From positions 248,001 to 312,000 of the forward strand of contig NZ_FOIJ01000010.1 in NCBI RefSeq assembly GCF_900111745.1: DNA of 64,000 nucleotides, in the 5' to 3' direction. Position 1 is the stretch's first letter; every line of letters begins with the position of its first letter. The notes under the pieces were generated by a model, which had not been told where the DNA came from, did no database searches, and saw only the letters and a program-made list of their open reading frames with translations. The DNA comes from Stigmatella erecta (GTDB taxonomy: Bacteria > Myxococcota > Myxococcia > Myxococcales > Myxococcaceae). This document shows positions 46,628 to 49,606 of this stretch, piece by piece. Made by a program: the position numbers and the translations under genes.

Positions 46628-46682
46628 GGGCAGGCCGCGCCGAGCCGTCCGGGACCGCGGCCCCACCCGCTGAAAGCGGTTA

Positions 46683-46746
46683 CATGTCTGTAGACAGGCC
46701 CCGGGGGAAGTTGGGACCCCCAGGGCCCTGTCCAGAGACAGACATG
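46683..46746 (+). repeat. Long imperfect hairpin upstream of the AlaLys-rich gene
   Basis: CATGTCTGT (46683-46691) pairs perfectly with ACAGACATG (46738-46746); ACAGGCCC (46694-46701) pairs with GGGCCCTGT (46723-46731) with one bulge; GGGGG/CCCCC closes the centre. The 64-base stem-loop sits 49 bases before the start of the downstream gene and has no T-tract. It could be a leader hairpin or an operator. Confidence 0.65.
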
Positions 46747-46794
46747 AAAGGCTGTTTTCCACACCGGGACTTATCGGTGTATACACAGCGCCAC

Positions 46795-47451
46795 ATGTCC
46801 TTCGAGAAAGCCCTTCGAGAAATGATTCGGGTTGAGCTGACGACCCAGCTGCGGCCCCTCCAGAAGTCCATTGCAGGCCTTGAGAAAGGCCTGGGGCATC
46901 TTGAGCGCCTGCGCTCGATGACCGCGAAGCTGGCCCCGCTGGCGGCCTCTCAGGGGTTGAAGCTCCCGCTGCCTCTGGTGCGGGGCGCGGGGCGGCCGGC
47001 CGCGGGCAAGGCCATGGGCAAGGCCGAGGCGAAGGCGGCCCCCGCGAAGGCAGCCTCCGTGAAGGCAGCCCCCGCGAAGGCGGCCCCTGTGAAGGCAGCC
47101 CCCGCGAAGGCCCCGGCCGGGGCGGCGCGGTCCTCGGGCAAGGGGGCCTCGGCCGCGGCCGCATCGTCCGGTGCGTGCGCGGTCATCGGGTGCAAGCGCC
47201 CGAGCCGGTCCAAGGGCTACTGCTCGGCGCACTACCAGAAGCTGCGGCTGCTCATCCGGACGGACCGCCGCCCCTCGGACTGGGGCGACAACGCGCCGCC
47301 GCAGTCCGCCAAGGACGTGAAGCTGCCCCGGGGGCGGGCGGCCGCCCAGGAGCGCCAGGCCGAGCCGCGGCAGGAAGAGCCGAAGGAGCCGCCCAAGCCC
47401 AAGGCGTGGGTGCGCAAGAAGGGCGCGCCGGGGATGATCTCCCTGAACTGA
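46795..47451 (+). CDS. AlaLysPro-repeat protein with Cys/His zinc-knuckle-like motif
   Basis: A 218-aa protein. Residues 1-60 form an amphipathic helix (EKALREMIRVELTTQLRPLQ). Then comes a histone-H1-like linker of repeats such as KAAPAKAASVKAAPAK. The conserved-looking module CAVIGCKRPSRSKGYCSAHYQKLRLLIRTDR has C-x(4)-C-x(9)-C-x(2)-H spacing, compatible with zinc binding. A basic tail ends in KAWVRKKGAPGM. DNA or RNA binding is plausible from charge (estimated pI very high), but not shown. ATG 46795 chosen; the ATGs at 46684 and 46744 lie in the upstream hairpin. Confidence 0.75.
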   Translation: MSFEKALREMIRVELTTQLRPLQKSIAGLEKGLGHLERLRSMTAKLAPLAASQGLKLPLPLVRGAGRPAAGKAMGKAEAKAAPAKAASVKAAPAKAAPVKAAPAKAPAGAARSSGKGASAAAASSGACAVIGCKRPSRSKGYCSAHYQKLRLLIRTDRRPSDWGDNAPPQSAKDVKLPRGRAAAQERQAEPRQEEPKEPPKPKAWVRKKGAPGMISLN

Positions 47452-47544
47452 GGGGCGAGGGAGCGGCGCGCATGACGAGGGCCTCCCAACACGCCAGGTC
47501 GCGCGGCCGTTGACAGACCTGCCGGGGGATGGGATTCGGGCGGC

Positions 47545-48054
47545 ATGAGCGAGCAAGGTTATCCGGTCACCGTGGCGGTTCAGCGTCCCGATGGCCGCGT
47601 GGAGCACGTGCGCGTGGGCACGGCATACAAGAGCGAGGAGGGGTTCTCCCTGCGCATGGGCGAACTCTCCATCGGTGCGGTTCCGGACGCGGCCTCTTCC
47701 GCGCCCCGCCGGGCCGCGAGCAGCGCGGGGGCGGGCGGCGGTGGTGGCGGTGGCGGCGGCGGCGGCGGCGGCGATGGGGCCATGTTCCCCAACTACGGCC
47801 GCAGCAAGGGAGGCGCCATCTACGGGGCCACCATGCAGGACCTGGAGTATTACGCCAATGGCGCGCGGCGCTCCCTGGCCGACCCGAGCAAGTCCCGGTG
47901 GCATGACAAGGAGCGGTCGCTGCTGGCGAGCATCGAGGCGGAGATTGCCCGGCAGCGAGGCGGAGACGCGGACGCCCCCCGGGCCGGAGGCTTCGGCCAT
48001 TCGCCGGGAGACGGCGAGCCGCCGCCGCACACCGATGACGACATTCCCTTCTAA
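47545..48054 (+). CDS. Poly-Gly protein ending in an SSB-type DDDIPF tip
   Basis: A 169-aa protein. N-terminal strand region (VTVAVQRPDGRVEHVRVGTAY), a polyglycine tract (about 64-76), then YGRSKGGAIYGATMQDLEYYANG and a helical segment, a Pro/Gly/Asp tail and the C-terminal end HTDDDIPF. The last six residues equal the acidic-hydrophobic tip of E. coli SSB, which recruits DNA-repair proteins, yet no OB-fold SSB domain is visible. The stop overlaps the next gene's start by 20 bases. TTGACA lies at 47510-47515, but no good -10 was seen. Confidence 0.75.
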   Translation: MSEQGYPVTVAVQRPDGRVEHVRVGTAYKSEEGFSLRMGELSIGAVPDAASSAPRRAASSAGAGGGGGGGGGGGGGDGAMFPNYGRSKGGAIYGATMQDLEYYANGARRSLADPSKSRWHDKERSLLASIEAEIARQRGGDADAPRAGGFGHSPGDGEPPPHTDDDIPF

Positions 48055-49606
48055 ACCCACGGGGTGGGCGGCTGCCTTCGGGGCGGGGGTGGCCACCGCC
48101 CTGGTGGTGGTGCCCCTGGCGCTGTGTGCGGGCGTGGGGCTGGGCGCGCTCTCCTCGAACACGGTGAGGGCCGCGGTGCCCGCGCTGCTCGTGGTGGGGC
48201 TGGTGCCCCCGCTGGCGGTGGTGGGAATGGAGGCCTGGGTGCGCCGCCGGATGGGCGCGGCCCCTGGGCGGACCGGGCTGGCGGTGGGGCTGGCCCTGGG
48301 GACGCAGGTGCTGGTGCTGGCGGGGGCCATCGGGCTGCATGCCTCCGCGCGGCGGCCCGGCGACGCGGCCCTGCTCACCGGCGTCCTGGCGGTGCTCTTG
48401 CCCGCGGGCGTGACGGGGGCGCTGAGGGCCCGGAGGCGCTCCGGCGCGGCGGCCCTGGGCGCCTCGGGGGCGAGCCTGCCGCTGTGCCTGGTGTTGCTGG
48501 GGCTGCCGGGCGGGGCGGACGCCGGGTGTCCCGAGCGGGCCCTCTGGCCCACGCAGGACTGGGCCTCGGCGCCCTTGCCGGCCGGGCATGAGCCCGCGCT
48601 GCGGGCCTTCGAGGCGTATGCCTTTACCCGGAAAGAGCCTGCCGGGGAGCGCCAGGGGATCCGCACGGACGGGGTGCTCATCCTCCACCAGGGGCGTCTG
48701 GTGTACGAGCGCTATGCGCCCGGCTGGACGGCACGGAAGCGGCACCTGGGCTGGTCCATGGCCAAGAGCGCCACCAATGCCCTCACGGGCCTGGCGGTGG
48801 CCCAGGGCGCGCTGGCGCTGGAGGACTCCATCTGCCAGTACGTGAAGGCCACGCGGGAGTCCGCCTGTGCCATCCAGGTGCGGCACCTGCTGGAGTTCGC
48901 CTCGGGATTGGACTGGCAGGAGGGCTACGAGAACGGCCCGCTCCAGACGTCCTCGGTGCTGGCGATGCTCTACGGCGAGGGCCACGCGGACATGGTGGCC
49001 TTCATCACGTCCCACGCGCAGCGGGACGCGCCGGGCACGAGCTGGGAGTACTCCTCGGGGGACACCACGCTGCTGGCGGCGGTGGTGGGCTCGGCGATGC
49101 GCCCCCATCAGCCCGAGGGCTGGGAGTGGCGGCTGCTGTTCGAGCCGCTGGGCATGCGCAGCGCGGTGTGGGAGCGCGACGGCCAGGGCGCCCTGGTGGG
49201 CTCCTCGCTCCTGTACGCCACGCCGCGGGACTGGGCGAAGCTGGGCTTTCTCTTCCTGAATGACGGGTGCTGGGAGGGCCAGCGGCTGCTGCCCGAGGGC
49301 TGGGTGGCCCGGTCCACCGCCGTGTCCGAGCCGCTCCGGAAGAAGCGGTTGTATTGGGATCCGGGGGATGTGCAGGGCTGGCAACTGTGGCTCAACCGCC
49401 GCGTGCCGGGCGTGCAGGACGAGAAGCCCTGGCCGCACGTGCCCGAGGATGCCTATGCCCTGCGCGGGCACTGGGGGCAATCCGTCACCGTTATTCCCTC
49501 GCTGGATGTGGTGGTGGTGCGCATGGCCGACGACCGGGAGCCGGGCGCCTTCGCGCTGGATGCCTTTCTGGCCCGGGCCCTGGCGCTGGTGGGGCAGCCG
49601 CCATGA
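48035..49606 (+). CDS. Membrane-anchored serine beta-lactamase-family hydrolase
   Basis: A 523-aa protein. Residues 1 to about 165 hold four hydrophobic helices (GVATALVVVPLALCAGVGL, AAVPALLVVGLVPPLAVVG, LALGTQVLVLAGAIGL, ALLTGVLAVLLPAGVTG). The rest is a penicillin-binding/class-C-like hydrolase: catalytic Ser241 in WSMAKSATN (S-x-x-K), WEYSSGDTTLL with Tyr but Ser rather than Asn in the Y-x-N position (as in NylB/esterase-type members), and LRGHWGQSVTVIP as the third motif. Substrate unknown: amide, ester or peptidoglycan. It overlaps the preceding gene's stop by 20 bases and the following lipoprotein by 4. Confidence 0.85.
   Translation: MTTFPSKPTGWAAAFGAGVATALVVVPLALCAGVGLGALSSNTVRAAVPALLVVGLVPPLAVVGMEAWVRRRMGAAPGRTGLAVGLALGTQVLVLAGAIGLHASARRPGDAALLTGVLAVLLPAGVTGALRARRRSGAAALGASGASLPLCLVLLGLPGGADAGCPERALWPTQDWASAPLPAGHEPALRAFEAYAFTRKEPAGERQGIRTDGVLILHQGRLVYERYAPGWTARKRHLGWSMAKSATNALTGLAVAQGALALEDSICQYVKATRESACAIQVRHLLEFASGLDWQEGYENGPLQTSSVLAMLYGEGHADMVAFITSHAQRDAPGTSWEYSSGDTTLLAAVVGSAMRPHQPEGWEWRLLFEPLGMRSAVWERDGQGALVGSSLLYATPRDWAKLGFLFLNDGCWEGQRLLPEGWVARSTAVSEPLRKKRLYWDPGDVQGWQLWLNRRVPGVQDEKPWPHVPEDAYALRGHWGQSVTVIPSLDVVVVRMADDREPGAFALDAFLARALALVGQPP

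Follow-up and report, generated by a model that had tools for sequence, protein, structure and literature searches.

An SSB-type DDDIPF tip is conserved on a two-domain myxobacterial protein without an SSB domain

The protein P0001, encoded at 47545..48054 on the + strand of the window (the whole stretch of DNA that was analysed, 64,000 nucleotides of contig C10 of the 9.2-Mb myxobacterial source genome, G000), is 169 amino acids long plus stop, its translation ending PPPHTDDDIPF. As the initial annotation had observed, the last six residues are identical to the tip of Escherichia coli SSB; they are also the tip of the single PF00436 SSB of the source genome (contig C5, L001), which ends GSGDDDIPF. 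Comparison of orthologue sequences indicates that the tip is conserved by selection and not by chance and, since the tail is conserved in this way, the protein probably plugs into the repair machinery served by SSB, entering it by a separate route. We lean towards P0001 being a small accessory protein of DNA metabolism, acting in recombination or repair, that would dock on the receptors of the SSB tip.

An AlphaFold2 model built on 40 homologues, taken with the pattern of sequence conservation, indicates that P0001 consists of two conserved domains rather than one (all features on the + strand). The N-terminal domain (residues 1–44; 47545..47676), conserved in A1/A3, is predicted to be a three-stranded antiparallel sheet with strands at residues 5–13, 19–30 and 33–38; the sheet (5–38) is a confident part of the full-length model, and the domain modelled alone gave the same sheet with a mean pLDDT of 82.6. 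It is followed by a variable Gly/Ala/Ser linker (residues 45–78; 47677..47778), predicted to be disordered with pLDDT below 50 at residues 44–76, and by a C-terminal domain (residues 79–140; 47779..47964) in which a FPNYGRSKG hairpin precedes two helices (residues 97–112 and 114–143), the modelled hairpin and helical hairpin together covering approximately residues 79–143. This second domain is the best conserved module of the protein and also occurs in viral and prophage proteins. It had been missed by the initial annotation, which had pictured an N-terminal domain as what the tip carries: that domain exists, but it is not the sole cargo. The remainder comprises a Gly/Pro/Asp tail (residues 141–163; 47965..48033), variable in sequence and of low confidence in the model, in agreement with the disordered tail first described, and the SSB-type tip itself (residues 164–169; 48034..48051).

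The absence of an OB fold, also proposed at the outset, agrees with both the model and the profile searches. The AlphaFold2 model contains no five-stranded barrel but a three-stranded sheet and, in the second domain, a hairpin with two helices. P0001 matched nothing in Pfam even at an E value of 5 and nothing in NCBIfam, and none of the 40 homologues had an SSB Pfam match; a hidden SSB domain was rejected on the basis of these searches of P0001 and its homologues. For P0001, PHROGs gave no convincing match and the PADLOC anti-phage defence profiles 0 families, and PDB sequence searches returned low-complexity or weak matches only. The best fold-search match of the full model was to ribosomal L29-type helical hairpins (VIA Z 6.2) and that of the N-terminal domain had a Z of 2.5, both of which we read as uninformative, and no match in the viral library had an E value below 0.001; the fold searches exclude no family, and the fold gives no functional clue. 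By eye only, the GR.KG motif resembles the FGK.KG-type hairpin-helix of ExoX-like_C (PF20600) and DUF3820 (PF12843). Hmmscan found neither family in P0001, its homologues or the prophage relative L246, and the P0001 gene was not among the members reported by PF20600 and PF12843 family searches.

Homologues were present in 91 of 96 genomes of the Myxococcaceae-type family in a family search, while the order-level families f2 and f3 gave no match in their listed genomes. We recovered 85 homologue sequences and used the 81 that carry the GRSKG motif as the full-length orthologue set for tip counts. Orthologue C-termini, which had been suggested as a check on the tip, proved far from divergent: 77 of the 81 end in PF and 76 in (I/A)PF, the variants including DDNIPF (40), DEDAPF (12), DDDAPF (8) and DDDIPF (6). 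Among the PF-ending orthologues, tail positions −26 to −7 are only 29–35% identical in pairs with 50–90% identity in the C-terminal domain, the tail differs in length, and synonymous changes occur in the I and P codons of the tip. Every same-genome SSB that was fetched for comparison ends D(I/V)PF. The exceptions among the orthologues are two EEEQF/DEEQF ends, one DDDAP and one apparent frameshift; order-level relatives end in DDEAY and PPDES. Because Ala replaces Ile before PF in roughly one in four of the 81 orthologues, and a few ends have no motif, fully SSB-like affinity would not be needed everywhere. In the frameshifted case (L043 2782–3402, − strand, genome G062) the tail shifts frame and a DDDNIPF-coding stretch lies in the neighbouring frame, so the gene appears to be broken or to contain a sequencing error. 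Four family genomes hold short homologues (L083–L086) that carry neither the GRSKG motif nor the tip.

The initial annotation had allowed that the tip might be accidental, given that its codons overlap the start of the next gene, and an origin by chance or as a by-product of that overlap was weighed as a rival reading. The overlap is real: the next gene, which is serine-hydrolase-like with N-terminal membrane segments (48035..49606, + strand) and not part of the system, has a possible start at 48035, giving a 20-nt overlap with the tip codons both in G000 and in G037, its closest relative. In G036 and G038, however, homology to the next gene begins only about 120–180 nt past the stop and the tip is still DDDIPF, and further genera retain the tip in front of a different downstream sequence. 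Because the tip persists where the overlap is missing or another gene lies downstream, the overlap did not create it. A DNA pattern for [DE][DE]x(I/V/A/T/M)PF-stop had four matches in the 9.2-Mb source genome. Three of these close an ORF, namely those of SSB, P0001 and XseB (the small subunit of exonuclease VII), and the tip was found on no other protein in G000. The reversed control pattern matched once in the same genome and, across 29 family genomes, about once per genome versus about 2.7 times for the real pattern; from assumed residue frequencies, about 7e-5 exact C-terminal matches are expected per proteome. With the 77 PF-ending orthologues set beside this rarity and the persistence of the tip where the overlap is absent, we rejected chance or gene overlap as the source of the tip, an origin that we regard as extremely improbable.

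The tip of XseB lies at G000:C9:112019–112039 (L259) and reads EDDVPF, with variants elsewhere. It was found on a variable linker in all 49 Myxococcaceae loci sampled (within L261–L310). Of the 22 XseB loci examined in the phylum outside this family (21 genomes, one fetched twice), 20 lack it, and the other two end DDPDKIPF (G159) and GGDPVPF (G134). Since XseB also carries a conserved tip, at least two unrelated non-SSB proteins gained an SSB-type tip in this lineage. Exonuclease VII acts on ssDNA. Separately, we observed an SSB-type tip on a Ser/Thr protein kinase of about 390 amino acids in two genomes of one genus (L346 852–2021 in G037:C2, and L340 in G038:C1), where it reads GDDDIPF or DDDNIPF; the best PADLOC match of the L346 kinase is PD-T4-6 (E 1e-39).

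Upstream of most orthologues lies a promoter-like element, which in the window occupies 47510..47537 on the + strand and consists of TTGACA (47510–47515), a spacer of about 16 nt and a TGGGATTC-like box that stops 7 nt short of the ATG. The same order of TTGACA, spacer and TGGGATTC-type box recurs ahead of most orthologues, where the spacer measures roughly 16–18 nt and the box ends within ~10 bases of the ATG. Because this conserved element so directly precedes the ATG, it supports the start codon at 47545, and its sequence suggests a housekeeping-type promoter giving a leaderless transcript. The host neighbours of the gene include no DNA-repair genes and vary across the family, a synteny comparison that revealed no repair operon around it and that argues against a role in repair; the upstream gene is retained in the core genera and the downstream gene is not. 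The upstream gene (46633–47451, + strand), conserved near the P0001 gene at 31 loci in core genera, encodes a protein with a middle part rich in Ala, Lys and Pro and with a zinc-finger-like motif, CAVIGCKRPSRSKGYCSAHYQK.

Relatives of P0001 occur on two IMG/VR contigs, one represented by L253/L254 and the other by L252. The relative at L254 5001–5384, whose N-terminus differs (MTTDERLDEINRKLDLLLKG...), keeps the GRSKG domain and the tip, ending GDDDIPF; upstream of it lie a gene of phrog_10048 and an exonuclease gene of phrog_69. With its different N-terminus, this protein shows that the GRSKG domain and the tip can occur without the N-terminal domain. The relative at L252 2959–3390 has both domains and ends DDSGLPF. 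A tipless relative in a prophage-like region of G010 (L246 1989–2270) directly follows genes for an Erf-like annealing protein and an exonuclease, and because L254 and L246 adjoin Erf and/or exonuclease genes, the GRSKG domain travels with recombination genes. Viral contigs searched with L246 as the query yielded nothing, and the phage and plasmid collections contained no relatives, one search giving chance-level matches only.

These relatives bring into view a second-ranked reading, in which the GRSKG/helical domain would itself bind ssDNA and the tip would recruit repair clients, making P0001 a non-OB analogue of SSB; with such a domain and tip, a phage or host could coat certain ssDNA without a classical SSB. 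The layout is SSB-like (folded body, Gly linker, acidic tip), and so are the net charges, which are +3 for the C-terminal domain and −6 for residues 141–169, against +3 and −5 for the body and tail of the source-genome SSB. Phages often keep an SSB in their recombination modules; one viral relative lies in such a module, and neither viral record contains a PF00436 SSB, although these records may be fragments. Nearly every host genome, however, has a normal SSB, and the N-terminal domain of P0001 is near neutral, so that we treat this reading as a minor possibility. Viral relatives with a tip the same as that of SSB also suit a role as decoy or regulator, in which the protein would vie with SSB for its docking pockets and thereby hold repair enzymes in check, like a phage-derived inhibitor. 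Such a role is unlikely: the protein is retained in nearly all family genomes, with a conserved promoter-like element, its two conserved domains exceed the needs of a decoy, and competition would demand high expression because SSB is normally abundant in cells.

In the accessory role that we rank first, and with some reserve prefer, the folded C-terminal domain (GRSKG hairpin and helical hairpin) would act either on DNA or on a recombination partner, assisted by the small N-terminal β-sheet domain, and the disordered acidic DDDIPF tail would fit the SSB-tip pockets of enzymes such as RecO, PriA, RecQ and exonuclease I type proteins. Docking by the tail would let the protein join or redirect SSB-organised repair and recombination without itself being an SSB. 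We infer docking in a tip pocket because the terminal Phe is critical for the interaction of E. coli SSB with DinG, where F177C abolishes binding (PMC11981726), and the last six residues of the phage HK620 SSB, NDYPPF, are required for Sak4 (PMC5928155). In favour of this role are the terminal PF kept over a tail that otherwise changes freely and codons that vary synonymously, the identity of the tip with that of the host SSB and its confinement to three ORF ends in the source genome, the recombination-type neighbourhoods of C-terminal-domain relatives, and the joint loss of GRSKG motif and tip in the four short homologues. Against it, in addition to the host neighbourhood, stand the Ala tips, the few tipless orthologues, the uninformative fold and the prophage relative without a tip. 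The opposite charges of C-terminal domain and tail would also fit an intramolecular tail, autoinhibitory or DNA-mimicking, that ends in Phe and is no docking peptide; for T4 gp32, the acidic C-terminal domain has been proposed to bind back at or near the ssDNA-binding site (PMC5892887). A purely electrostatic tail, however, needs no strict terminal PF while its acidic residues vary, which makes this explanation very unlikely.

The docking tip is already known, SSB being treated as the hub that displays it; the open-access literature searched yielded neither a natural protein other than SSB reported to bear an SSB-type tip nor a conserved natural non-OB family carrying one. If other proteins show the same tip, partners could be recruited to ssDNA from more than one source, with competition and hand-off among them. 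The P0001 family occurs in the majority of genomes of a model bacterial family, falls outside the Pfam, NCBIfam and PADLOC families tested and offers a prediction open to direct test; the exonuclease VII tip adds an independent second case from these genomes. Tentatively, P0001 and its relatives may form a non-OB ssDNA-binding family of myxobacteria and viruses that acquired the SSB-type tip independently; if so, this family and the tip-bearing XseB would make the SSB tip a transferable docking code in the lineage, and not something peculiar to SSB.

Compared with known systems, P0001 resembles bacterial SSB (PF00436; E. coli and the source genome) in bearing DDDIPF on a disordered Gly/Pro/Asp linker, but SSB has an OB domain where P0001 has two other small domains and no Pfam SSB match. 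The phage HK620 SSB and Sak4 (PMC5928155) likewise place an SSB-type tip inside a phage recombination module, as relatives of P0001 adjoin Erf or exonuclease genes, although the HK620 protein is described in that work as a bona fide SSB and P0001 is not an OB protein. In the same genomes, Myxococcaceae XseB is a further protein other than SSB whose variable linker leads to a conserved tip, of the [DE][DE]DVPF type; it is a known nuclease subunit of family PF02609, however, and is not homologous to P0001. Finally, the PriB-SSBc chimera (PMC8509808) carries an SSB tail on a non-SSB body, as P0001 does, but that chimera was engineered and PriB is structurally SSB-like, whereas P0001 is natural and not of the OB type.
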